A DNA stretch of 64,000 nucleotides from Halopseudomonas salina (GTDB taxonomy: Bacteria > Pseudomonadota > Gammaproteobacteria > Pseudomonadales > Pseudomonadaceae): contig NZ_VTTI01000002.1 in assembly GCF_008641105.1 (NCBI RefSeq), positions 224,050 to 288,049 of the forward strand, read 5' to 3'. Below, in pieces: positions 26,146 through 40,039 of this stretch (position 1 is the first letter of the stretch; the number at the start of each line of letters is the position of its first letter). Under the pieces are notes generated by a model. It searched no databases. It was not told the origin of the DNA and saw only the letters and a list, made by a program, of their open reading frames with translations. Made by a program: the position numbers and the translations under genes.

Positions 26146-28530
26146 ATGACACCTTTCAGAAGTTACGCATTACCTTGCGCCCTTGGCGCACTTACAGTGG
26201 CACTCACAGGCTGCCTCGGTGGCGGTGGCGGTTCAAGCTCCGATATTGAAGACCCTGCGGCGTTGTCTATAGCGGTGCTCTCCAGCAGTCCTGACCAGGT
26301 CACCGGGAACTCGGTACTGCTGGGCGTCGAGGGTGATGTCGACCTGACTGAACAACAGGTGGCAGAGCTGGAACTGTGGGTTAATGACCAGAAAACCGAG
26401 CCGACACGTGTCACGCGGCGCAACGGCCGCATCGAGGTGCTTATTCCGGGCCTGAGCGAGGGTGAAAACCGGATAGAGCTGCACCACACCGAGCGTGGTC
26501 CGCTGGACTCGATGGCTGTGTCAGCGTTTCCAGAAACTGGTCCGATTTTCTCTGGCCCGCAGCAATACCCCTTTGTCTGCACAACAGTCAGCGAGTGGGA
26601 CAAACAGCCCTTGGTCGATACCAATGGCGATACAGGTTTTCCGGTATTCGAGGGAGGTACACAGATCGGCCTAAGCCGTGATTGTTCGGTTGAGCCCTTC
26701 GTGACATTTGTTTATCGCACTACAGGCGGCAGCTACCAGCCTCTACCGGGCGACGGTACTCGCCCAGCCGACATGGCCAGCACCACCCTGACCGACGGCC
26801 GTGAAGTAGATTTCGTCGTGCGCTGGGAGCGCGGAACGCTGAACAGGTTCCTTTACAGCTTTGCCACCCTTGCCACCCTGGGAGATGCCGCAGATGCGGC
26901 AGCGACTGATAACTGGAATGGCCGGCTGCTGTTCCAGTTCGAGGGAGGTGTTGCCATCGGCCACACCCAGGGCCGAGTCAGCGGTCGAGCTTTGGCACCA
27001 GAAGTTCTGGGCAAGGGATATGCCGTCATCTACTCTTCCGGCACCCGAACCAATGCGCATTACAACCTCCAGGTTGGCGGCGAAACTGCACTCATGGTCA
27101 AGGAGCACTTTATCAAACGCTTCGGTGTGCCGGACTACACCGTGGCCATCGGTGGCTCGGGCGGCGGAATCCAGCAGTATGTCTACTCCCAGAACCACCC
27201 CGACCTACTGGATGCCGGTGTGCCGCAGTACGCCTATCCGGACATGGTCACCCAGACCATCCATATCGGCGATTGCGAACTTCTGGAACACTACATGGAC
27301 GTGACTGACCGCAACAACGCACGCTGGCAAACCACCGAGAATCGCTCTTTGCTGGTAGGGCTGAATGCGACAGATGACTATCCCGATCCCTTCGCCGACG
27401 CCAAGACCATGTTGGGTTACGCAACGGCACCCGGAATGTCCGAGTGTATTCCTGCATGGCGCGGCTTGACACCCCTGGTCATGAATCCAATGTTCGGACA
27501 GGTGGCCAATCAGGCCCAGATGGAACCTGCAGGGGTAATGGAGCAGGTTAACTGGACTCACTATGACGACCTGCGCAATATCTACGGCGTAGATGCCCAA
27601 GGTAATCCGCGAACACTGTTCGATAACGTCGGTGTTCAATACGGCCTTGATGCGCTGACCAGCAATGAGATATCTCCTGAGGAGTTTCTCAAACTCAATT
27701 CGCAAGTAGGCGGCTGGAAGCAGCCGGAGGACATGGTTCAGGAAGGTTTTCCCTTTATCGGCACCATCGCCGATGTAATGAATGATCCTACCAAGTTCGA
27801 CCCCTGGAGCCGGCGGAACATGTTACTCAGTCCGGATGGTATCGCACCTGCGCCGCGCACGGAGGGTGATCTGCTGGCAATCCGGGCAGCCTATGAGTCA
27901 GGAATGGTATTCGATGGTCAGCTGAATATTCCCGTAATTGAATGGCGGCATTACCTGGAAGAAGTGCTCGACATGCACAACAGCCATCAGTCGTTCTCCG
28001 CACGCCAGCGTATCCGTAACAAAATGGGCCATTCTGATAATCAGGTTATATGGTTTACCGATACTCGCCCGACCGATACTTCCGACCCGGCTCGTCCTCG
28101 CCCTCGGGAAGAATTCGATCACACCTGGCTGGCCCTTGAGGTGTTGCACGAATGGCTTGAAAACATCGAACAGAATCCGGACCAGACCATCGCTGAAAAC
28201 AAGCCAGCCGCTGCAGTGGACAGTTGCTTTGAAACGCAGGGCGATCTGATTGCATCCGGCACCGACGTATGGGACGGAATAATCGACAACGACCCGGAGG
28301 GCCTGTGCACTAGCCAGTTCCCTACCTATACCACCTCACGCATGGAGGCCGGCGGGCCGATAGAGGGCAGTATTTTCAAGTGCACTCTCAAGCCGATCAG
28401 TACTGCGTTGAACGATGGTACTTATGGAAGCTGGGTGCCTGACACCGCGGAGATAACGCAACTGAATGCCATTTTCCCCGAGGGGGTTTGTAACTATAAC
28501 GAGCCTGATCAGGGCCGCCCACAGAACTGA
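26146..28530 (+). CDS. DUF6351 family secreted lipoprotein (alpha/beta-hydrolase-like)
   Basis: The 794-residue product has a lipobox (VALTGC, cysteine near residue 23) followed by a Gly/Ser linker. About 100 residues of beta-rich domain resemble an N-terminal Ig-like module, and a large C-terminal domain of the DUF6351 family follows. That domain contains GGSGGGIQQY, a GxSxG-like nucleophile elbow with a Ser in the middle, followed by QNHPDLLDAGVPQYAYPD. These features suggest a serine hydrolase related to polyhydroxyalkanoate or tannase-like esterases, but no substrate is known. It stands alone, between a MocR-type gene and gdhA, with a terminator after it. Confidence 0.75.
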   Translation: MTPFRSYALPCALGALTVALTGCLGGGGGSSSDIEDPAALSIAVLSSSPDQVTGNSVLLGVEGDVDLTEQQVAELELWVNDQKTEPTRVTRRNGRIEVLIPGLSEGENRIELHHTERGPLDSMAVSAFPETGPIFSGPQQYPFVCTTVSEWDKQPLVDTNGDTGFPVFEGGTQIGLSRDCSVEPFVTFVYRTTGGSYQPLPGDGTRPADMASTTLTDGREVDFVVRWERGTLNRFLYSFATLATLGDAADAAATDNWNGRLLFQFEGGVAIGHTQGRVSGRALAPEVLGKGYAVIYSSGTRTNAHYNLQVGGETALMVKEHFIKRFGVPDYTVAIGGSGGGIQQYVYSQNHPDLLDAGVPQYAYPDMVTQTIHIGDCELLEHYMDVTDRNNARWQTTENRSLLVGLNATDDYPDPFADAKTMLGYATAPGMSECIPAWRGLTPLVMNPMFGQVANQAQMEPAGVMEQVNWTHYDDLRNIYGVDAQGNPRTLFDNVGVQYGLDALTSNEISPEEFLKLNSQVGGWKQPEDMVQEGFPFIGTIADVMNDPTKFDPWSRRNMLLSPDGIAPAPRTEGDLLAIRAAYESGMVFDGQLNIPVIEWRHYLEEVLDMHNSHQSFSARQRIRNKMGHSDNQVIWFTDTRPTDTSDPARPRPREEFDHTWLALEVLHEWLENIEQNPDQTIAENKPAAAVDSCFETQGDLIASGTDVWDGIIDNDPEGLCTSQFPTYTTSRMEAGGPIEGSIFKCTLKPISTALNDGTYGSWVPDTAEITQLNAIFPEGVCNYNEPDQGRPQN

Positions 28531-28583: not shown

Positions 28584-28797
28584 TGGCTCGCACCGCAATA
28601 GTGCATAGAATGCATCACTTTGTTACAGTTAGAGCTGCAGCGAACCTGGTAGATCCCCGAAAGGAATCCTTTGAAAAAACGATATTCACCGCGCGACTGT
28701 GTCTATTTCCAGTCCCGGGGTCAGGCGCGACTGCGTGTCTGTATGCATATGCCCTTAAGCCAATAATGTTCTTCACGCTTACTACAAGAGAATGCAA

Positions 28798-30135
28798 ATG
28801 ACCTACACCCTGGAAAACTGTCTCGCGAATATCAAAAAGCGTGATCCCGACCAGCCTGAATTCCATCAGGCTGCGGAAGAAATACTCAGCTCTCTTTGGG
28901 AGTTTCTGGAATCACATCCCAAGTACTTGAAAAGTGGCATTATCGAGCGTCTCGTCGAGCCAGAGCGGGTGATAATGTTCCGGGTGCCGTGGATGGATGA
29001 CAAGAACCAGGTCCAGGTCAATCGGGGCTTCCGGATACAGATGAACAGCGCCATAGGGCCCTACAAGGGTGGGCTGCGCTTTCATCCATCGGTAAATCTG
29101 AGCGTGCTGAAGTTCCTCGCCTTTGAACAGGTTTTCAAGAATGCATTGACAACTCTGCCAATGGGCGGTGGCAAGGGCGGATCGGATTTTGACCCCAAGG
29201 GCAAGAGTGACGAAGAAGTGATGCGCTTCTGTCAGTCGTTCATGACGGAACTCGCGCGTCATATCGGTGCAGATGTGGATGTGCCCGCTGGCGACATCGG
29301 AGTTGGCGCACGCGAGATTGGCTATATGTACGGGCAGTACAAACGTCTGCGCAATGAATTCACTTCGGTGCTGACTGGCAAGGGCCCCACCTACGGAGGC
29401 AGCCTCATCCGTCCGGAAGCGACCGGCTACGGCTGTGTGTATTTTGCGCAAGAGATGCTCAAGGGCCGTGATACCGGTTTCGCAGGCAAACGCGTCGCTA
29501 TTTCGGGCTCCGGCAACGTTGCCCAGTACGCTGCGCAAAAAGTGCTGGAACTCGGTGGGCAGGTGATTTCCGTTTCCGACTCTGGCGGTACCCTGCACTT
29601 CGTCGAAGGTATGACGTCTGATCAATGGTTCGAGCTGATGGCGCTCAAGAACGAACGTCGCGGAAGGCTGGAAGAAATGGCCAGCGACAACGCTGACTTT
29701 TACCCCGGACAGACGCCCTGGCATTTGCAGTGTGATATCGCCCTGCCCTGCGCCACACAAAATGAGCTTGACGAAACCGACGCTCGTGCTCTGGTCCAGA
29801 ATGGCTGCATATGCGTGGCTGAAGGTGCCAATATGCCGTGCACTCTGGCTGCCGTCGATGTGTTCATGGAGCACCAGATCCTGTTCGCGCCGGGTAAAGC
29901 CGCTAATGCTGGCGGCGTTGCCGTGAGCGGGCTGGAAATGACTCAGAACGCCATGCGCCTGCATTGGACTGCCGGTGAGGTAGACGAAAAGCTGCACAGC
30001 ATCATGAAGTCGATCCACAACACCTGCGTGCATTTCGGCAGGGAACATGATGGATTTATCAACTATGTCAAAGGGGCTAACATAGCAGGCTTCGTCAAAA
30101 TTGCGGACACGATGCTCGCTCAGGGCGTAGTCTGA
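28798..30135 (+). CDS. gdhA: NADP-specific glutamate dehydrogenase
   Basis: GdhA aminates 2-oxoglutarate to glutamate with NADPH and ammonia. The 445-residue hexameric-type enzyme shows the family's catalytic region LPMGGGKGGSDFDPKGKSD (catalytic lysine in GGGKGG), the glutamate-binding MNSAIGPYKGGLRFHPSVN, and a Rossmann motif SGSGNVAQYAAQK. It ends with GGVAVSGLEMTQNAMRL. AAGAGA lies six bases before the ATG at 28798, which I prefer to the ATG at 28792. Its stop overlaps the 3' end of the convergent kinase gene by 16 bp. A 267-bp interval upstream holds the previous terminator and presumably its promoter. Confidence 0.95.
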   Translation: MTYTLENCLANIKKRDPDQPEFHQAAEEILSSLWEFLESHPKYLKSGIIERLVEPERVIMFRVPWMDDKNQVQVNRGFRIQMNSAIGPYKGGLRFHPSVNLSVLKFLAFEQVFKNALTTLPMGGGKGGSDFDPKGKSDEEVMRFCQSFMTELARHIGADVDVPAGDIGVGAREIGYMYGQYKRLRNEFTSVLTGKGPTYGGSLIRPEATGYGCVYFAQEMLKGRDTGFAGKRVAISGSGNVAQYAAQKVLELGGQVISVSDSGGTLHFVEGMTSDQWFELMALKNERRGRLEEMASDNADFYPGQTPWHLQCDIALPCATQNELDETDARALVQNGCICVAEGANMPCTLAAVDVFMEHQILFAPGKAANAGGVAVSGLEMTQNAMRLHWTAGEVDEKLHSIMKSIHNTCVHFGREHDGFINYVKGANIAGFVKIADTMLAQGVV

Positions 30136-32216
30136 TATCCAGCATTTTCCTGTGTATTGGCCAGCAGCATGTTTGCTACGCGGCTGGCCAATACATCAAT
30201 GGTAAAAGGCTTGGTCAACAATTGCATATGCGGACCGAGAAAATCGGTCTGGTTGATGGCGCTCTCTGCGTAACCGGTGAGAAAGAGAACAGGCAACCTT
30301 GGTTGCAGCTGCTGAATAACCTCAGCCAACTGCCGACCGTTCATTCCCGGTAGCCCGACATCGGTCAACAGCAGATCAACGCGGTCCATGACGTAAAAGG
30401 ATTCGAGCGCCTCATCGCTGTTGCGAGCCACCGTAACCTGATAGCCGAGCTCTTCCAGCACTTCCTTGTTGATCAGCCTCACCGAATCGTCGTCTTCAAC
30501 CAGTAGTATCGACTGACCGCTACCTGCTTTAGCCAACCTTTCAATAGGCGCTGAGTCCTTGTGAGCCTGGTAGTTTTCCGGCAGGCAGATGGTTACGTTG
30601 GTACCCCTCTCCGGCACGCTGTTGATTGTAAGGTAACCATGACTTTGCTGAGCAAAGCCGTAAACCATGGACAGACCTAGCCCTGTGCCCTGACCAATCG
30701 GCTTGGTGGTGAAGAAGGGCTCCATGACCTTGTCCTGAACATGGTGGGGTATTCCATACCCGGTATCTTGCACATCAATACACACCTGCCCCTGCTCAGC
30801 CTCATTGGACTTGATAAGCCGAGTGCGAATGATCAGGGCTCCCCCCGCAGGCATTGCGTCCCTGGCATTGATGACGAGATTGAGAATAGCGTTTTCCAAC
30901 TGATTGCCGTCGGCGTGGATCCATGGATCCTCACTACAGAGCTCCAATGTGAGGGCGATCTGCTCGGATACCGTTCTCTGCAGCAGATCCTTGAGAGTCG
31001 ACACCAGACGGTTGATTGGCAAGGGTTTGGCGTCCAGTGGTTGGCGCCTTGAAAAAGCCAGCAATCGTTGGGTCAAGGAGGCTGCGCGCTGTGCAGAGCT
31101 GTTGGCCGCGTCCATAAACCGTTCAATGTCTTTGGTTTGGCCTTTAGCCATGCGAATCTTGATCAGATCAAGCGCGCTGATAACGCCCGTGAGCATATTG
31201 TTGAAATCATGCGCGATACCCCCGGTCAACTGGCCTACCGCCTCCATCTTCAGTGCCTGGCGGAGCTGGTCCTCGGCTCGTTCGCGCTCATCACTCTCCT
31301 TTCTGAGTCGCTCAATAGCGGCATTGAGTTCGCGTGTTCGCGCCTGTACCTGAATCTCGAGCTCCTCATTAAAACGGCGCAGAGACAGCTCAGCCTGCTT
31401 TTCTTCGTTTATATCCAGAATGACCGACGCGGCTCCAAGAATATTGCGCTGCTCGTCGTACAAAGGCACCGCGCTTACACGCATCCAGGACTCGGAACCA
31501 CTATCAAGTTTGTGGCAAAACTCCACACCTGTCGCGGCCTCGCCTCTGAGGGCTCTGGCGCCGGGAAACATGTTCGGCTCCAGCTTTTTACCCTCTGAAT
31601 CACGAGCGATCCAGCGTGCAGCGCTTGACGGGTGCTTTGAAGGAATAATTCCACTGGGCAGATACTTTCTGAACAGCGGATTGCTGATGATTGATTTGCC
31701 CTGACTGTCCATGAAACTGATACCGACGGGCACGTTTTCCAAAAGCGTTGTCAGCCGGCCGCGTTCTTCCGCGAGTTCAGCCAGGCGATCACGCATCTCG
31801 AACTGACGCTCACGTGAACCCCAGGCAGCATCAACTGCACTCAATAACGATGCGGAACTCAATGGTCGCTCCAGCACGATCACGTAGCCGGCGGAGGCAG
31901 GCAAACGGCGTCTGGCAACATCGGTATCACGCCCCAATCGACCTTTGTTAGATGCCAAGAGTATGGTCGGAATATCAGACCAGCTGGGCTGGCGACCCAG
32001 CGCCTCGTCCAGCGCAACGACTCCGCCCAGCAGGGACTCTTCGGTCAGGATGACCAGCCCCGTACCCGCGCCGAGCTCTGCTGCAAGGGAGTTGATATTG
32101 GAATGAACCTGAACATAGTACTTACCTGAGAAAAGCTTGTTCAGGCTGGGCGCATCCCCTTTGAACGGTGCAACAATTGAAAGGGTCTTCGCTTCAGGTC
32201 GTCTTTCAGAAATCAC
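30120..32216 (-). CDS. Hybrid histidine kinase with N-terminal pseudo-receiver and PAS (KaiC-linked)
   Basis: This 698-residue kinase has five parts. The first (about residues 10-145) resembles a receiver fold (SIVAPFKGDAP ... VIVLERPLSSASLL) but lacks the phospho-acceptor Asp (LVILTEES instead). A PAS domain (about 155-285) and a coiled coil follow. The HisKA domain has H336 in GGIAHDFNN, and the HATPase domain has NLVINARDAM, DTGYGI and GTGLGLSM. A C-terminal receiver has LLLTDVGLPGMNGRQ. I start at GTG 32216, which has GAGAGG just upstream and overlaps the kaiC-like stop by 11 bp; a TTG at 32249 is possible. Coupling to the KaiC-like gene suggests one signalling unit. The stimulus is unknown. 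Confidence 0.85.
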   Translation of the reverse strand: MISERRPEAKTLSIVAPFKGDAPSLNKLFSGKYYVQVHSNINSLAAELGAGTGLVILTEESLLGGVVALDEALGRQPSWSDIPTILLASNKGRLGRDTDVARRRLPASAGYVIVLERPLSSASLLSAVDAAWGSRERQFEMRDRLAELAEERGRLTTLLENVPVGISFMDSQGKSIISNPLFRKYLPSGIIPSKHPSSAARWIARDSEGKKLEPNMFPGARALRGEAATGVEFCHKLDSGSESWMRVSAVPLYDEQRNILGAASVILDINEEKQAELSLRRFNEELEIQVQARTRELNAAIERLRKESDERERAEDQLRQALKMEAVGQLTGGIAHDFNNMLTGVISALDLIKIRMAKGQTKDIERFMDAANSSAQRAASLTQRLLAFSRRQPLDAKPLPINRLVSTLKDLLQRTVSEQIALTLELCSEDPWIHADGNQLENAILNLVINARDAMPAGGALIIRTRLIKSNEAEQGQVCIDVQDTGYGIPHHVQDKVMEPFFTTKPIGQGTGLGLSMVYGFAQQSHGYLTINSVPERGTNVTICLPENYQAHKDSAPIERLAKAGSGQSILLVEDDDSVRLINKEVLEELGYQVTVARNSDEALESFYVMDRVDLLLTDVGLPGMNGRQLAEVIQQLQPRLPVLFLTGYAESAINQTDFLGPHMQLLTKPFTIDVLASRVANMLLANTQENAGYQTTP

Positions 32217-33702
32217 GCTGCCTCTCTTCCATGAGGTGTTCTTCGCCAAAATATTCCGGGGTGCCCGTAAGTACGCCGCGGAATGTTATCAGTGGATCGC
32301 CAACGCGTACGCCATGAGAGTCAATCCGCAATTCACGAATAGCATCTTCATGGGCGCCAGTACGGTGTTTGAGTACTGAAATCGCTTTGCGAAGCCTCCC
32401 TTGGGCTTCGAAATAGCGAATCAGTATGACTGAGTCTGCTATGTAGGAAACGTTGAGGCTGGTGGACATCGAGCCTATGAGCCCATGCTGTGGGTTTATC
32501 AGAAAGGTGACGACCCCCAACTGGCTCAGATAGGACAGCACCTCATGCATCTGCAGGATGAGCTGCTGCTCCTGAGGCATAGCGGCCATATAGCCATTAA
32601 GACTGTCAACTACGATCATCCTGCTGTTGCGTTCTTCTACTTCGGTGCGCACTCGCCAGGTAAATTCACCGGGGGAGATTTCTGCCGGATCAATCTGCTG
32701 GATTACCAGCTGACCATTTGCTACATACCTACTGAGGTCGAGCCCCATGCTGTCCGCGCGATTGATGAGCGTGGCTACCCGCTCATCGAATTCGTAGATG
32801 GTGCAGTTTTCCCCCCTTCTACAGGCAGCTGCCAGGTATACGAGTGCCAGAGTGGTTTTGCCGGAGCCGGCCGGACCGGTTACCAGAGTGCTGGTACCCC
32901 GTAGGGGGCCACCAACCAGCAAGTCGTCGAGCTCTTTTATCCCGCTACAAACTGATTCAGTGCTGAACTTGACATGGTGCTTGGCCGCAATGAGACGAGG
33001 GTACACCTCCAATCCACCTTTCTTGATAGTAAAGTCATGATAGCCAGCTACGAAATCCACTCCTCGCAGTTTCTGTACCTGCATGCGCCTGCGAGCGGCC
33101 CCGAACTCCAGGGTCAGCCGTTCCAGGGTAACAACACCATGGCAAAGACTGTGCAAGTGATTATCACGCTCCCCGTTAGAACCTGTCATATCGTCTACCA
33201 GCAGAACGGTGATCTGCTGACCAGAGAAATACTGTTTGAGCGCCAAAACCTGGCGTCGGTAGCGCAAGGGATCCTGAGCAAGCAGGCGCATTTCTGACAG
33301 GCTGTCGAAGACCAGTCGCTTTGGCTTGAGCAGTTCTACCTTTTCCTCGATCAGCCGAATGGTATTGCCTAGCTCGGCCTCCCAGGGATGCAGGATGGAT
33401 TGCTCATAGCTTTGGCCCAGCACTTCAGCAGTGGAAGAAAACTCGAACAGATCAATACCATCGAGTGTCCAACCATGTGAATGCGCCACACTTTCAAGTT
33501 CTTCTGCCGTTTCTGAGAGGGTGATGTAGAGCACGGGCTCGCCGGCGGCAACACCCTCGAGCAGGAACTGTAAGCCAAGTGTTGTTTTACCAGCACCGGG
33601 CGTGCCCTCTAAAAGATAGAGCCGGTTTTGGGGCAGTCCGCCCTTGAGAATTGCGTCAAATCCGTTGTTGCCGGTGGAGATGACGGGGTATGTTTTTGCC
33701 AT
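32206..33702 (-). CDS. Two-domain KaiC-like RecA/DnaB-family ATPase
   Basis: This is a 498-residue double-domain KaiC homologue. Walker A motifs are at residues 33-40 (GTPGAGKT) and 276-283 (GPAGSGKT), with Walker B aspartates in RLVFDSLS and MIVVDSLNGY. In the first domain the catalytic pair reads S63-E64 in place of the cyanobacterial Glu-Glu; in the second it reads D306-E307. The position aligned with cyanobacterial phospho-sites Ser431/Thr432 reads S419-Y420 in my hand alignment. No kaiA or kaiB is nearby. GAGGA lies six bases before the ATG. It overlaps the hybrid kinase gene and is divergent from a second hybrid kinase. A role as a timing or stress-signalling ATPase that works through the kinases is inference. 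Confidence 0.9.
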   Translation of the reverse strand: MAKTYPVISTGNNGFDAILKGGLPQNRLYLLEGTPGAGKTTLGLQFLLEGVAAGEPVLYITLSETAEELESVAHSHGWTLDGIDLFEFSSTAEVLGQSYEQSILHPWEAELGNTIRLIEEKVELLKPKRLVFDSLSEMRLLAQDPLRYRRQVLALKQYFSGQQITVLLVDDMTGSNGERDNHLHSLCHGVVTLERLTLEFGAARRRMQVQKLRGVDFVAGYHDFTIKKGGLEVYPRLIAAKHHVKFSTESVCSGIKELDDLLVGGPLRGTSTLVTGPAGSGKTTLALVYLAAACRRGENCTIYEFDERVATLINRADSMGLDLSRYVANGQLVIQQIDPAEISPGEFTWRVRTEVEERNSRMIVVDSLNGYMAAMPQEQQLILQMHEVLSYLSQLGVVTFLINPQHGLIGSMSTSLNVSYIADSVILIRYFEAQGRLRKAISVLKHRTGAHEDAIRELRIDSHGVRVGDPLITFRGVLTGTPEYFGEEHLMEERQRDF

Positions 33703-33906
33703 TCGATATCCTCAAAAGGGACGCAGCCCCTCGAGAGCAACGTACTAATCTGCTGTTGGGCAGCTGTTTTCTGACTCTGAAACCATCCGAGCCACTTTAT
33801 TGGCGTATTTTATCAGCCAGTATGGTTAAAATCTTCGCGGCTGTTAGGAAATGTTTCAGAGCACTGGGCCAGCTCGCACCTTCAACATCTAGGACCGCAA
33901 ATCGGC

Positions 33907-35481
33907 ATGAAAATTCAAGATATGTCACCTCTATTGCCTAACGTGGAGGAACGCTACCGGCTGCTGGTCGACTCGATCATCGACTATGCCGTTTACATGC
34001 TCGACCCAGACGGTATCGTTGCCAGCTGGAATTCTGGAGCGCAGCGCTTCAAGGGATATGCCAGCGAAGAAATAATTGGTTTGCCTTTTTCCTTGTTTTA
34101 TACCGAGGAAGACAGACTTGCCGGCTTGCCCAAGCGTGGTCTTGAAATTGCCGCGGCGCAGGGGCGCTTCGAGACGGAGGGCTGGCGGGTCAGAAACGAC
34201 GGCTCGCGGTTTTGGGCCCACGTGATTATCGATCCGATTCGCGACGAGGTGGGCTCTATCACCGGATTTGCCAAGGTCACTCGTGATATCACCGAGCGCT
34301 ATCAAACCCAGCAGGAGCTCGACCGCGCACGTGAAGCTTTGTTTCAGGCGCGGAAAATGGAAGCCGTTGGTCGTCTCACCGGCGGTGTCGCCCACGATTT
34401 CAACAATCTGCTGACCATCGTCTTGATCAGTCTGAACCTGGCGAAGAAACGAGCCCCTGACTCCCCTGTACTTGACCTGATTGACAATGCTATTCAGGGC
34501 GCCGAGCGCGGTGCTGCCATGACCCAGCGGATGCTGGCCTTCTCCAGACACCAGCCACTAAAAATAGAGACATTGGTAATTGCCGACCTGTTGCAGGGGA
34601 TACAAGGTCTCATTCGGCAATCCATTGGGCCCGTTATGCGGATTCATACAAGAATCGCGTCTGCCCTGCCCCGCATTCATGGCGATCGTAACCAGTTGGA
34701 AACGGCCCTTCTGAATCTGGTCATCAATGCCCGCGACGCCATGCCCGGGGGCGGCGAGGTATTAATCTCGGCCCGTCTACCCACCGCTTTCGATAGCGTT
34801 GAAGCGGTAATGGAGCCAAATGAATATGTTTTGCTGGAGGTTGTCGACACCGGCGACGGTATGGATGAAGAAACCGCTCGGCGGGCCATCGAACCGTTCT
34901 TCACCACAAAAGACGTTGGCAAGGGTACCGGGCTTGGGCTGTCAATGGCACACGGCATAGTCGAGCAACTGGGTGGCAAGCTGATGTTAGAAAGTGTTCT
35001 GGGAAAAGGTACAACAGTCCAGCTGTGGCTGCCGATTAGCCATGAGCTGACTGTGCAGGCCGGTCCATCCAGCATTGCTCAGTGCGCCTCTGCTACCAAA
35101 CCATTACAGATTCTCGTAGTTGACGACGACGACCTGGTGCTGACCAATACCTGTGCGCTTCTGGAGGACATGGGTCATCACACTTTTCAAGCTTCCTCTG
35201 CGGACGTAGCTCTTGAGATGTTGAAGAATCTCGAAGTCGCACTGGTCATTACGGACCACGCCATGCCCAATACCACTGGCAGACAACTGGTGGAAAGCCT
35301 GAAAGTGTCCAACCCCAAGTTGCCGGTAATTATTGCATCGGGTTACTCGGACATTACCGAGCGGGCTGACCCAGGCATACCCACATTGGCCAAGCCCTTT
35401 GATGAGGCCGGTTTATCCAGAGTTATTTGCCAGGCGATGGAGAAGGCAACGACCCTTGTGTCTCGCGGGGTAATACCTTGA
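33907..35481 (+). CDS. PAS hybrid histidine kinase with C-terminal receiver
   Basis: This 524-residue soluble kinase has one PAS domain (about residues 14-130). A HisKA domain has phospho-His H163 (GGVAHDFNN), and a HATPase domain (about 255-377) has NLVINARDAM, DTGDGM and GTGLGLSM. A receiver domain (about 400-520) has D450 (VITDHAMP). There are no membrane segments or signal peptide, so it senses an intracellular cue. A weak AGGA lies about 12 bases before the ATG; an ATG five codons later is an alternative. It is divergent from kaiC across 204 bp and overlaps the next kinase gene. Its kinase core closely resembles those of the neighbours, suggesting duplication. Confidence 0.88.
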   Translation: MKIQDMSPLLPNVEERYRLLVDSIIDYAVYMLDPDGIVASWNSGAQRFKGYASEEIIGLPFSLFYTEEDRLAGLPKRGLEIAAAQGRFETEGWRVRNDGSRFWAHVIIDPIRDEVGSITGFAKVTRDITERYQTQQELDRAREALFQARKMEAVGRLTGGVAHDFNNLLTIVLISLNLAKKRAPDSPVLDLIDNAIQGAERGAAMTQRMLAFSRHQPLKIETLVIADLLQGIQGLIRQSIGPVMRIHTRIASALPRIHGDRNQLETALLNLVINARDAMPGGGEVLISARLPTAFDSVEAVMEPNEYVLLEVVDTGDGMDEETARRAIEPFFTTKDVGKGTGLGLSMAHGIVEQLGGKLMLESVLGKGTTVQLWLPISHELTVQAGPSSIAQCASATKPLQILVVDDDDLVLTNTCALLEDMGHHTFQASSADVALEMLKNLEVALVITDHAMPNTTGRQLVESLKVSNPKLPVIIASGYSDITERADPGIPTLAKPFDEAGLSRVICQAMEKATTLVSRGVIP

Positions 35482-38024
35482 AGGACGACCATCCAGAAGG
35501 AGCTGGAAACACGCCCGCAAGCAGTTCTCAAACCATGCAAAACCGCGATCAAAGCGGTGAACAGGCGATGCATGAACGTTATAGGCTGATTGCTAAAGCC
35601 ACCAACGACGCGGTGTGGGATTGGGATCTTGTGACCAATTACGTCTTGTGGAATGAGGCGTTGATGCACGCCTACGGCTACACGGCAGAAACCATTACTC
35701 CGACCGGAGATTGGTGGATTGCCCAGATTCATCCGGTCGATCAGGCCCGTGTTGATGCGTCGATCCATACCGTCATTCATAGTGAAGAAACTGCCTGGAG
35801 TGAGGAATACCGCTTCCGCCGGGGAGATGGTACGTATGCAGAGGTCCTCGATCGTGGACAGGTGATACGGAACTCGAGCGGCCAGGCAATACGTGTTATC
35901 GGCGCCATGCTCGATTTGACTCAGATGCGAATTGCAGCAAATGCGCTACGCAGAAGCGAAGAACGCTTCAGAACGATACTGGAAACCGTTGAGGCAGGGT
36001 TTGCCATCGTTCAGGTCAAGTTCGACAGCCAGGACAGGCCGGTTGATTACCGTTTCGACGAGATCAACCCTGCGTTCGAGAAACAGGCGGGCGTAAACCT
36101 TCAGGGTAAATGGGTCACAGAGTACGCCCCTGATCTGGAGCCCTTCTGGTTTGAGATTTACGGAAAGGTGGCCATGACCGGCGAGCCCGCCAGCTTCGAA
36201 AGTTACGCCGAAGCGTTCGCCCGGTGGTTCGATGTACGCGCGGTTCGCGTCGGCGATCCGGCGGATAGGCAAATTGCGGTCATTTTCAATGATGTCACTG
36301 AGCGGCGGAATGCGCAGGAAAGGTTGCGCGCAAGCGAAGCCCTGGCCCGAGACAATGTAGAGCGTGTTCAACTGGCGCTGTCCGCTGGCGCCATTATTGG
36401 TACTTGGCACTGGGATCTGGCTACCGACCACTTCAGCATCGATGACGGCTTTGTGAACGCCTTTGGTCTTCCCCCCGGAATCAGTCGACACGACCTTCCT
36501 CTGGTAGAGGTGGTAAAGACAGTGCATCCCGATGACAGCGCTGGTCTGATGAACGCAATCGATGAAGCCATCCTGCGGGGCGGCGCCTATGCTCACCAGT
36601 ACCGTGTGCGTCGGGCAGATGGGAAATACTATTGGATAGAAGCAAACGGTCGGGTTGAGCATAGCGCCGAGGGCGTACCTCTGCGCTTTCCAGGGGTCCT
36701 TCTTGATGTAGAAGAGCGACGCGCTGTCGAGGCGGAACGTGACAGGGCACTGGCAGCGCTACGAGCTTTGAATGACACCCTGGAACAACGCGTTGCAGAG
36801 CGTACCGATGAGCTGATGCAGTCCGAGGACAAGTTGCGTCAATCGCAGAAAATGGAAGCAGTCGGTCAGCTCACAGGAGGGCTGGCCCATGACTTCAACA
36901 ATTTGCTTGCAGGTATTTCCGGTGCGCTCGAACTGATGTCCAGACGGATCAATCAGGGACGTACCGACGAGATAGGTAAATATATCCTGTCGGCACAAGG
37001 GGCAGCCCAACGTGCAGCTTCTCTGACCCACAGATTGCTCGCCTTTTCGCGTAGGCAAACGCTGGATCCTCGTGCCATTGATGTGAACACCTTGATTGCC
37101 AGCATGGTCGAATTGATCCGCCACGCTGTAGGACCGGGCATCCTCGTGAAAACAGTTGGCGCGGACAATCTCTGGACTACGTTGGTTGATGCAGGGCAGC
37201 TCGAAAGCTCTTTGCTCAACATTTGCCTCAATGCGCGAGATGCCATGCCTGATGGTGGCCGTATTGTTATTGAAACCAGCAACAAGCATTTGGAGGGCCT
37301 GACGGCGCAAGCTGCCGAGATACCACCGGGTGAGTACCTTGCACTTACTGTAACTGACTCCGGTGTTGGTATGACACCGGACATCCTTGCCAAAGCTTTT
37401 GAGCCTTTCTTTACCACCAAGCCAATCGGTCAGGGGACAGGGCTGGGTCTCTCGATGATTTACGGTTTTGCCAAGCAGTCAGGTGGGCAGGTACGTATTG
37501 AATCGGAGGTTGACCAGGGCACGACCATAAGCATTTACCTTCCCCGCCATCACGGTCCCGCTGCGAAAGTCGGTCAACAACTGAAAAACGCTCCCGTAAA
37601 CTTTTCCAAAAGTGGCGAGACCATCCTTATCGTCGATGATGAACCAACGGTAAGAATGTTGCTTCGTGAGGCGTTGGGCGACCAGGGATACACCCTGATC
37701 GAGGCGGCTGATAGCGTCGCAGGGCTCAAGCTGCTGCGTTCCGACATCAACATTGACCTGCTGATCACCGATGTCGGACTCCCGGGCGGTCTGAATGGAC
37801 GGCAGATGGCCGACGCAGGCCTGGAAAATCGGCCTGGCCTCAAGGTGCTGTTTATTACTGGTTATGCGGAGGCTTCTGTTCTTGGTAAAGACGATCTTGG
37901 AGCTTGTATGCAAGTGCTGACCAAGCCCTTTGCCATCGACGCGCTCTCTGCTCGGGTTCAACACCTACTGTTTTCGGACCCCGCGGATCGGGGATCCGTG
38001 TTGCAAACGCCCCCTATTTCGTAA
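35478..38024 (+). CDS. Multi-PAS hybrid histidine kinase with C-terminal receiver
   Basis: This 848-residue cytoplasmic kinase has three PAS-type sensor domains (about residues 30-145, 160-285 and 300-430) and a coiled coil. A HisKA domain has H471 (GGLAHDFNN). A HATPase domain follows with NICLNARDAM, DSGVGM and GTGLGLSM, then a receiver with LLITDVGLPGGLNGRQ. I start at TTG 35478, which overlaps the previous stop (TTGA) and has GGGG seven bases upstream. ATG codons at 35535 and 35568 are alternatives that would still leave the first PAS domain whole. Its receiver is closest in motif to that of the KaiC-linked kinase on the other side (TDVGLPG), suggesting shared origin or partners. Confidence 0.85.
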   Translation: MKDDHPEGAGNTPASSSQTMQNRDQSGEQAMHERYRLIAKATNDAVWDWDLVTNYVLWNEALMHAYGYTAETITPTGDWWIAQIHPVDQARVDASIHTVIHSEETAWSEEYRFRRGDGTYAEVLDRGQVIRNSSGQAIRVIGAMLDLTQMRIAANALRRSEERFRTILETVEAGFAIVQVKFDSQDRPVDYRFDEINPAFEKQAGVNLQGKWVTEYAPDLEPFWFEIYGKVAMTGEPASFESYAEAFARWFDVRAVRVGDPADRQIAVIFNDVTERRNAQERLRASEALARDNVERVQLALSAGAIIGTWHWDLATDHFSIDDGFVNAFGLPPGISRHDLPLVEVVKTVHPDDSAGLMNAIDEAILRGGAYAHQYRVRRADGKYYWIEANGRVEHSAEGVPLRFPGVLLDVEERRAVEAERDRALAALRALNDTLEQRVAERTDELMQSEDKLRQSQKMEAVGQLTGGLAHDFNNLLAGISGALELMSRRINQGRTDEIGKYILSAQGAAQRAASLTHRLLAFSRRQTLDPRAIDVNTLIASMVELIRHAVGPGILVKTVGADNLWTTLVDAGQLESSLLNICLNARDAMPDGGRIVIETSNKHLEGLTAQAAEIPPGEYLALTVTDSGVGMTPDILAKAFEPFFTTKPIGQGTGLGLSMIYGFAKQSGGQVRIESEVDQGTTISIYLPRHHGPAAKVGQQLKNAPVNFSKSGETILIVDDEPTVRMLLREALGDQGYTLIEAADSVAGLKLLRSDINIDLLITDVGLPGGLNGRQMADAGLENRPGLKVLFITGYAEASVLGKDDLGACMQVLTKPFAIDALSARVQHLLFSDPADRGSVLQTPPIS

Positions 38025-38202
38025 TTGGGTCTGGAAAACAATTTCTTCTGCAGACCACTCTATAGCGCGCCAAATGTCTCCAGGTTCGACTCAACCCATC
38101 AATTGGGGACCAGTCAGTTGCAAAAAAAGATATAGTTTTTCCGCATTTTGGCCACATATAGTTGCTGATACCCCATCGCGAATAATAGCAAGGATGCAGC
38201 CA

Positions 38203-39978
38203 ATGACCTTCAGACCCCCCGCCTTGTTAGCGGTCATCAAGGAATCAGATTTTTCAGTAGTCATAACCACTGGCGAGCTGGAACCTGCAGGGCCGGTCTA
38301 CGTGCATGTTAATGATGCTTTTACACGCATGACGGGTTATTCACGAGAGGAGCTTCTGGGTGCAGCACCCAGCCTCCTGGAGGGTCCGGACACTGATCGC
38401 ACAGTTCTGGAGCGACTCAAGTCAAACTTGCGTGCCGGCGACTCTTTTGAGTGTCAGGCGTGGAATTACCGGAAGGACGGTACGCCCTATCTGGTTGAGT
38501 GGACCATCACGCGTTTACGCCATGATGGAGAAGGTTTGGATTATTTTTTTTCCGTGCAGCAGGAAATAACCAACCTGAATCCTGCTCAGGACAGGCTGGA
38601 GGGCCAAACTCGGCGCTTGAATGCACTTTTGAATTCAAGCGGAGCCAAGCACGATCCTATTACTGGCGCCTTGAATCATCGCAGTATGCTTTTGCGGCTA
38701 CAGCGTCTCATTGATCAGACGGCAGAATCCGGCTCAGTGACCGGCCTTGTGTCCTTGCAGTTCAGACGCCTTGACCGCATTGATCGAGCCTTTGGCGTGG
38801 AGACAATCAATCATCTCCTGAGCGATATCGCCAAACGCCTCGGTAACAGACTTAAGCCGGAGGAATCGCTGGCCCGTTCCCATGATCACACCTTCGCGGT
38901 AATCATCTCTGCGGAAGCCGATGCGGCGAACGATGCGGATCATCATCTGATGAAGCGAGCACGCTCTTTCATTGCGGCTGTTACTGAAAAGGATTTTGAA
39001 ATTGCGGGTGAAGTTCTACGGGTCGAGGTGAGCGCGGGTATTGCCCGCGCGCCCACAGATGGCCGCCACGCGCGAGAGCTGGCACTGCTTGCCGAAGAGC
39101 TTGCTGAAGGGGCCGCCAATACAGACGCGGATCCTATTCGCTGGGCTGATCACAGCATAAAGGAAGCGCAGCGCCAGGAAATCAAACTTGAAGGCGATCT
39201 GCAGTCTGCCGTCTCCGAAAAGCAATTGGTGCTCTTTTATCAACCAGTTATGGATTTGGAAAACGGTAAGGCAGTGGGGGCTGAGGCCTTATTGCGCTGG
39301 CCACTACCTGAAGGGCAAGCCCCGATAGGTCCGGACTGTTTTATCCCGCTGGCCGAGCAGCTGGGGCTCATGGATGAGCTGGGAGGACAAGTTTTCGAAG
39401 ATGCCTGCCTTCAACTTCGAAGTTGGCAAGCGCTCGAGGGCAACGCGGCATTCTGGATTTCGGTCAATGTAGCACCCTCTCAACTCCGGGATCCGAATCT
39501 GGCCGCCCGCTTTGTGGATATCTCGCGATCTATAGGCGTGTCGCCAAGATGCATGAAGCTCGAAATAACAGAGAACGCATTGGAATTCGACATCAATTGT
39601 GTGCGACAGGTGATCGATGACCTGGTTGCAGCTGGTTTTTCTCTAGCCCTGGACGACTTCGGTACCGGTTACTCTTCTCTGGGACGTCTGATCGATATCC
39701 CGTTCAATCTGATCAAGGTAGATAAGGCGTTTGTCTGGCAATCACCCGACGGACGCGGCGCCGGTGTAGTTGCGAGTCTTGCGCAGCTGAGTCGTCACCT
39801 GCATATCGAGGCGCTTGGCGAGGGGGTCGAGACCCCTGCTCAGGAAGCTTTCTTGCGGTCGCTCAACTACCGTTTCGCCCAGGGCTTCTATTATGCCAAA
39901 CCGATGGCCGCGGCTGACTTTGCGGTGTGGGCCGGATGGTTGCCCGATCAAGCCCATGTTGGAGTTGCTACCACCTGA
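38203..39978 (+). CDS. PAS / degenerate GGDEF / EAL phosphodiesterase
   Basis: This 591-residue protein probably hydrolyses cyclic di-GMP. The PAS domain (about residues 15-130) resembles LOV domains in its GPDTD segment, but the photoactive cysteine is absent (GAAPSLLEG). The GGDEF domain is degenerate: the signature position reads SHDHT, so cyclase activity is unlikely. The EAL domain is intact (GAEALLRWP, VNVAPSQL, LEITEN, LDDFGTGYSSL, IKVDK, GEGVET). AAGGA lies eight bases before the ATG at 38203; a longer frame begins at 37930 inside the previous gene. It follows the two hybrid kinases by 178 bp, as an output candidate for them. Confidence 0.9.
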   Translation: MTFRPPALLAVIKESDFSVVITTGELEPAGPVYVHVNDAFTRMTGYSREELLGAAPSLLEGPDTDRTVLERLKSNLRAGDSFECQAWNYRKDGTPYLVEWTITRLRHDGEGLDYFFSVQQEITNLNPAQDRLEGQTRRLNALLNSSGAKHDPITGALNHRSMLLRLQRLIDQTAESGSVTGLVSLQFRRLDRIDRAFGVETINHLLSDIAKRLGNRLKPEESLARSHDHTFAVIISAEADAANDADHHLMKRARSFIAAVTEKDFEIAGEVLRVEVSAGIARAPTDGRHARELALLAEELAEGAANTDADPIRWADHSIKEAQRQEIKLEGDLQSAVSEKQLVLFYQPVMDLENGKAVGAEALLRWPLPEGQAPIGPDCFIPLAEQLGLMDELGGQVFEDACLQLRSWQALEGNAAFWISVNVAPSQLRDPNLAARFVDISRSIGVSPRCMKLEITENALEFDINCVRQVIDDLVAAGFSLALDDFGTGYSSLGRLIDIPFNLIKVDKAFVWQSPDGRGAGVVASLAQLSRHLHIEALGEGVETPAQEAFLRSLNYRFAQGFYYAKPMAAADFAVWAGWLPDQAHVGVATT

Positions 39979-40013: not shown

Positions 40014-40039
40014 AAAAAAGCCCCATTTCTGGGGCTTTT
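40014..40039. terminator. Bidirectional terminator between the EAL gene and tRNA-Ser
   Basis: A ten-bp stem (40016-40025 with 40030-40039) with a TTTC loop ends in TTTT on the plus strand and in TTTTTT on the minus strand. It can end both the EAL gene and the convergent tRNA-Ser. Confidence 0.85.

Follow-up and report, generated by a model that had tools for sequence, protein, structure and literature searches.

A KaiC-like ATPase and its adjoining hybrid histidine kinase as a probable KaiB-less signalling pair in Halopseudomonas salina and other proteobacteria

The kaiC-like gene and the kinase gene that follows it

We examined a 64,000-nucleotide stretch of the Halopseudomonas salina genome (contig NZ_VTTI01000002.1, positions 224,050 to 288,049; hereafter the window, in whose numbering its features are given) that contains a gene for a KaiC-like ATPase. 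A preliminary description had placed this gene, three hybrid histidine kinase genes (K1, K2 and K3) and an EAL-domain gene in one signalling system, and all five are found as open reading frames (ORFs), with translations, at the positions and on the strands it had assigned. The kaiC-like gene (32206..33702, minus strand) encodes, by ORF, Pfam and alignment, a member of the KaiC-A clade with two KaiC ATPase stretches (PF06745), in agreement with its description as a two-domain KaiC homologue. Directly after it on the same strand lies the partner kinase gene K1 (30120..32216; as an ORF, 30120-32249), whose most likely start is a GTG at 32216. With this start, K1 overlaps the kaiC stop by 11 nucleotides (32206..32216); an overlap of the two genes had been described before, and it is real, with its length and start codon corrected here. 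The same overlap is repeated in most related loci and is consistent with a predicted co-transcription of the two genes. All start codons at the locus are predictions from sequence.

The pair recurs well beyond H. salina. A KaiC scan of genome contigs returned 47 loci, whose KaiC is 81-89% identical to that of the window in Pseudomonas and Halopseudomonas and mostly 66-73% identical in Rhizobiales, sphingomonads and Burkholderiales; a group with Stutzerimonas stands at 54-56%. A histidine-kinase ORF lies directly downstream of all 48 KaiC-like ORFs scoring above 300 bits. A sequence model built from the N-terminal 160 residues of these partners, representing the N-terminal domain that we call NT, matches 48 of 48 partners and no other ORF at those loci, a count from which the frameshifted locus L044 was dropped. 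Among 298 Pseudomonadaceae genomes, 102 carry this KaiC clade (E below 1e-100) and 108 carry NT, with both present in 101 and neither in 189; a first scan was limited in most genomes to the top 5 candidates and a second to the top 12, so that the absences are upper bounds, and two KaiC pieces in one genome (G247) were counted as a single locus. At 101 of the 102 loci the NT gene is directly next to kaiC on the same strand. The exception (locus L059 in genome G280) has a KaiC of the clade beside a 326-residue kinase piece without NT, apparently a decaying pair. Across 149 Sphingomonadaceae genomes, 33 KaiC loci were found in 29, each with an adjacent NT kinase (33/33); adjacency by ORF also holds at 59 of 60 further loci, and a betaproteobacterial pair (L038) matches NT as well.

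The KaiC ATPase and a soluble-looking hybrid kinase bearing NT are inherited as a pair in Pseudomonadaceae, Sphingomonadaceae, Rhizobiales and Burkholderiales, and the kaiC stop usually overlaps the kinase start. The earlier claim that KaiC and kinases belong together is supported for one kinase, K1, and the two genes almost certainly form a functional unit. In three sphingomonad genomes (G331, G010 and G361) the pair is present two or three times, and each KaiC adjoins an NT kinase of its own. Genome G005 has a second-copy KaiC-like fragment (L070:5824-6441; 83% identity over residues 354-495) that is apparently a remnant.

Pairing of this kind could also reflect selfish or passive linkage, in which the two genes move horizontally as an operon without contact between their products, KaiC acting elsewhere (for example in ATP-dependent repair or stress) and K1 sharing only its regulation. 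The KaiC identity of 66-73% between gamma- and alpha-/betaproteobacteria fits such transfer. We compared pairwise distances across 65 pairs, a set that leaves out L044 (frameshifted), L008 (on a contig shared with L049), L047 (partial KaiC), L059 (no NT), L088 (its KaiC ORF was missed in gene picking) and a duplicate. The distances of KaiC correlate with those of NT at 0.83, of the kinase core at 0.75 and of the REC domain at 0.68, a gradient that fits physical linkage. The KaiC-NT correlation matches that between NT and its own kinase core (0.82), and the partial correlations with KaiC are 0.57 (0.40-0.67) for NT, 0.21 for the core and -0.09 for REC. This ranking supports the view that NT tracks KaiC and does not prove it. 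Passive linkage is improbable given the near-absolute pairing with one specific NT while the PAS and GAF inserts vary, and given that NT, not the generic core, is the part that tracks KaiC.

The N-terminal domain of K1 and the residues of the KaiC-like protein

By Pfam, K1 consists of an unannotated N-terminal part, a weak PAS domain, HisKA, HATPase and REC; neither a KaiB match nor, at E <= 0.001, a GAF domain was found in it, and NT itself (31788..32216, minus strand) has no Pfam match. An AlphaFold2 model of NT from 46 sequences shows the beta-alpha order of a receiver, with a predicted local distance difference test score (pLDDT) of 85.0, and its top matches in Foldseek and VIA-align are receiver domains. 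CikA, KaiA and SasA structures are not among the 50 matches listed by either search, which is uninformative either way. In the 46 sequences an invariant A16-P17 stands at the place of the receiver acid pair, strand 3 ends in T58-E59-E60 (LTEE) at the place of the phosphorylated Asp, and R117-P118 (LERPL in K1) occupies the place of the receiver Lys-Pro, places that were assigned by strand order, not by structure superposition. NT is predicted to be a receiver fold without the phospho-acceptor residues and is best called a pseudo-receiver. The 2011 genome paper on Ramlibacter tataouinensis compared the N-terminal domain of a corresponding kinase, Nt_HK (Rta_04340), both with KaiB and the N-domain of SasA (10-16% identity) and with a receiver (19%), and saw a likeness to each (PMC3164672); the KaiB-like fold is not borne out by the model, in which receiver domains head the fold matches. 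All 113 database proteins found with NT are kinases. The partner kinases range from 559 to 1125 residues, and between NT and the core they carry no insert, a PAS domain, or PAS plus GAF.

In an alignment to solved KaiC sequences, Ser63-Glu64 of the first ATPase domain (CI) and Asp306-Glu307 of the second (CII) fall on the two catalytic Glu pairs, and Ser419-Tyr420 falls on S431/T432 of cyanobacterial KaiC. The Synechococcus elongatus numbers used in this comparison (S431/T432, K224/R226 and K457/R459) are those we assume for that protein. Common to both proteins are the two RecA-like domains, the Walker A motifs and the positions of S431, K224/R226 and K457/R459, whereas the window protein has Ser-Glu and Asp-Glu in place of Glu-Glu, Tyr at T432, a short C-terminal tail that ends at residue 498, and no accompanying KaiA or KaiB. 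Across the 65 family members the first CI position is Ser in 64 and Ala in one, with Glu next to it in every case; the CII pair is Asp-Glu and the Walker A Lys is kept in both domains throughout, so that the Glu-Glu pairs of circadian KaiC are absent from the whole set (65/65). The phosphosite pair is Ser-Tyr in 59, the window included, and Thr-Tyr in 6. Because six of seven distant Pseudomonas KaiCs also have Ala or Ser in CI (with Tyr-Glu in CII and other phosphosite residues), loss of the first CI Glu is not unique to this clade; the seventh, from the KaiB-linked locus L063, has Glu-Glu in both domains. Asp-Glu combined with an invariant tyrosine occurs, among the KaiCs compared, only in this clade. 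Tyrosine as the second phosphosite has also been described for some cyanobacterial KaiC3 proteins (PMC5520375).

The preliminary description had reported no KaiB, and none is matched by Pfam among the five window proteins. The KaiB profile PF07689, which detected KaiB in the positive control S. elongatus, scores above its cut-off in 2 of the 298 Pseudomonadaceae genomes (G216 and G220) and below it in a third; none of these three is among the 102 genomes with this KaiC (0/102). G216 (locus L063) and G220 each have a distant KaiC with canonical Glu-Glu pairs, 27% identical to that of the window, and two consecutive KaiB matches follow it immediately downstream.

These features bear on the 2011 proposal that such pairs work as a stand-alone hourglass or daily timer, which came with co-transcription of the Ramlibacter pair by reverse-transcription PCR (PMC3164672). 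In the timer's favour, all 65 family members retain two residues that can be phosphorylated, and in Rhodobacter sphaeroides a KaiA-less KaiBC works as an hourglass (PMC10076222). Against it, no KaiB was matched in the 102 genomes with this KaiC, the first CI catalytic Glu is lost, and the KaiC-like protein shows no long coiled coil at its C terminus like that of Rhodobacter; further, that protein falls far short of the circadian KaiC cut-offs (185.4 versus 546.25 bits for TIGR02655 and 272.4 versus 408 for PRK09302). An hourglass or daily timer is thus unlikely, and we hold it equally unlikely that KaiC and K1 mark time at all rather than sense energy or stress.

Neighbouring kinases and the EAL-domain gene

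On the plus strand beyond kaiC lie K2 (33907..35481; PAS-HisKA-HATPase-REC by Pfam), K3 (ORF 35427..38024; PAS repeats-HisKA-HATPase-REC) and a PAS-GGDEF-EAL gene (ORF 37930..39978). The K2/K3 overlap described earlier and the K3/EAL overlap of the ORFs are doubtful because they need far-upstream TTG starts; later ATGs give gaps instead. The first ATG noted in K3, at 35535, lies 54 nucleotides past the K2 stop, and the ATG at 38203, with AAGGA upstream and about 180 nucleotides past the K3 stop, is a plausible start for the EAL gene. The fifth protein reads SHDHT at its GGDEF box, so that this domain looks degenerate, as had been described. In the same protein the EAL domain (PF00563, 202.4 bits) has intact-looking E-x-L, DDFGTG and EGVE motifs, which we take to be the catalytic ones. 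Its PAS domain scores with the blue-light LOV families NF052652 and NF052306 and reads GAAPSLLEG at what is presumably the place of the LOV flavin-binding Cys motif. A terminator-like hairpin of 10 pairs (40016..40039, listed on the minus strand, T-rich on both sides) lies 3' of the EAL gene; in a promoter and terminator scan, hairpins and other hits were no more frequent than in shuffled sequence. On the other side of the pair, a 794-residue ORF (26146-28530) has an equal-length counterpart beside the pair in the closest relative (L049:2157-4541); in the window a glutamate-dehydrogenase-like gene (28792-30135) lies between this ORF and K1.

The preliminary description had read KaiC, the three kinases and the EAL protein as one circuit setting cyclic di-GMP. 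The genes are indeed adjacent in the window, the EAL catalytic motifs look intact, and all three kinases contain both motifs it had quoted (KMEAVG-x-LTGG-x-AHDFNN and GTGLGLSM). These motifs are family-wide, which rules out their use as a sign of one pathway: the first 47 loci have 41 ORFs with the strict kinase motif, and 6 of these encode kinases that lack the partner domain; in the next 43 loci the motif is found in 27 ORFs, of which 7 lack that domain. Co-occurrence fails for the five-gene set, yet holds for KaiC and K1. In 15 pair-carrying genomes, K2 orthologues (56-59% identity) occur in 5, none of them near KaiC, and no orthologue of the EAL protein above 34% identity was found, so that neither gene is linked to the pair in any of the 15. 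K3 orthologues (65-72%) occur in 5 of these genomes; those of 65-70% are unlinked in 4, and one is near KaiC (G031), divergent from it and about 3.7 kb off with other genes between. A cut-off K3-like ORF lies 190 nucleotides from KaiC in a second close relative (L008). K3 is thus near KaiC in these two relatives only, and may have been added locally in this genus. On the results for K2, K3 and the EAL gene together, we rejected the idea that the five genes form a unit.

Flanking genes were counted around 127 KaiC loci, which are not independent of one another. An EAL-domain gene is present less than 4.5 kb from KaiC at 6 loci, versus 2 at 4.5-9 kb; the first 67 loci gave 6 near and none far, and the 60 check loci none near and 2 far. 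All 6 near genes are upstream of KaiC and 5 are on its strand. An earlier estimate against loose genome-wide candidate counts had suggested no enrichment. Two relatives of the window have a PAS-GGDEF-EAL gene on the kaiC strand, some 110 nucleotides upstream of kaiC (L021:7785-9890 and L086:9398-11503), an arrangement that would suit a shared circuit; that gene differs from the window's (27-29% identity), and the EAL proteins near KaiC in relatives are, where alignable, 27-31% identical to it. EAL genes near KaiC are not clearly enriched, and the neighbourhood link to cyclic di-GMP is weak.

Extra hybrid kinases near KaiC are modestly enriched, with 28 within 4.5 kb (1121 kb searched) versus 7 at 4.5-9 kb (972 kb); independent events are fewer than 28, which include partner remnants (L044, L059) and several from one clade (L050, L075, L076). 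In that Pseudomonas clade (KaiC 74-75% identical) the gene immediately before kaiC, on its strand, encodes an extra hybrid kinase, so that the order is kinase-kaiC-NT-kinase. Of the proposed cyclic-di-GMP circuit there remain the upstream, same-strand placement of most near EAL genes and the excess of extra kinases, and a looser, lineage-specific link of KaiC to such genes is possible. One circuit joining KaiC, all three kinases and the EAL protein is very doubtful.

A candidate route from KaiC to the kinase

We propose that the KaiC-like ATPase and K1 probably form a two-gene, KaiB-less KaiC signalling module, for which K2, K3 and the EAL gene would not be required. From the sequences we infer how KaiC would communicate with the kinase. 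The KaiC-like hexamer would change state with ATP or ADP and according to whether the invariant Ser/Thr-Tyr pair is phosphorylated. The pseudo-receiver of K1 would read that state and set whether the core acts as a kinase or as a phosphatase. Phosphate would then exit through the REC domain of K1 to an unlinked phosphotransfer protein and regulator, while the PAS or GAF inserts between pseudo-receiver and core could supply a lineage-specific second input. The pseudo-receiver is more likely than not the point of contact with KaiC. More tentatively, and with the odds slightly against it, this domain may dock on the KaiC hexamer and read both its nucleotide and its Ser/Tyr state, as a third KaiC output beside SasA and CikA, and KaiC may phosphorylate its own tyrosine. 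A single ATPase ring would in that case serve kinases that differ between lineages in their PAS or GAF modules.

Several observations weigh against this proposal. NT copies also lie away from this KaiC (18 of 119 in Pseudomonadaceae and 4 of 37 in Sphingomonadaceae), and because NT kinases also occur alone, NT need not bind KaiC everywhere. The falling correlation from KaiC through NT and core to REC mirrors the order of the DNA, and recombination could produce it. The CI ATPase may be weak, as its first catalytic Glu is missing (Ser in 64/65, Ala in 1/65), and with that residue lost a cyanobacterial-style cycle is unlikely. Finally, the enrichment of extra kinases leaves room for larger circuits.

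The closest known counterpart of the pair is that of R. tataouinensis, where the genome paper describes a kaiC setting in which a specific kinase (Nt_HK) is systematically present and kaiB is missing, with SY, TY or SF sites, and proposes a family of KaiC-interacting kinases (PMC3164672). Going by that description, in both the Ramlibacter and the window pair kaiC is directly followed by a specific kinase whose N-terminal domain is conserved, the phosphosites are of the SY, TY or SF type, and no kaiB is seen, in the case of the window pair among the five proteins and in the 102 related genomes; the window kinase has an extra REC and PAS and its NT is modelled as a receiver fold. The window pair is another member of the kaiC/specific-kinase pairs without kaiB described in 2011. 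The preliminary description had offered a KaiC output distinct from SasA and CikA; the idea stands as a proposal, and had already been made for such pairs in that paper. A search of 399 genomes from the family to which L038 belongs gave no match to a primer sequence from the paper, and our literature search found no later study of Rta_04330, of the Ramlibacter pair. The present analysis adds the scale on which the pairing occurs, a receiver-fold model and a residue signature, and it sets K2, K3 and the EAL gene apart from the unit.

Among clock proteins, CikA resembles K1 in that it acts in a KaiC pathway and is a hybrid-type kinase that includes a pseudo-receiver, but the K1 pseudo-receiver is N-terminal, K1 has no GAF domain, and no KaiB was matched for it to bind. 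SasA, like K1, is a kinase with an N-terminal domain that reads KaiC, a role that in K1 is putative; the SasA domain has a KaiB-like thioredoxin fold, whereas that of K1 is a predicted receiver fold. KaiC-like hubs in archaea were reportedly the subject of a 2017 mBio paper. In the cyanobacterial clock, both CikA and KaiA work with pseudo-receivers, and that of CikA binds KaiB (PMC12632262). Rhodobacter sphaeroides KaiBC is, like the window protein, a KaiA-less KaiC in a proteobacterium, but there KaiB is present and the C terminus forms a coiled coil (PMC10076222), neither of which was seen here.

Many bacteria in which no clock is known have relatives of KaiC, and few outputs of these proteins have been identified. 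Adjacency alone is poor ground for calling neighbouring kinases or an EAL gene KaiC outputs; the conserved pair singles out one kinase, and one domain within it, in bacteria that can be cultured and handled easily in the laboratory. If the pseudo-receiver of K1 does read KaiC directly, this would show how KaiC signals when KaiB is missing, and would account for the repeated appearance of pseudo-receivers in KaiC pathways.

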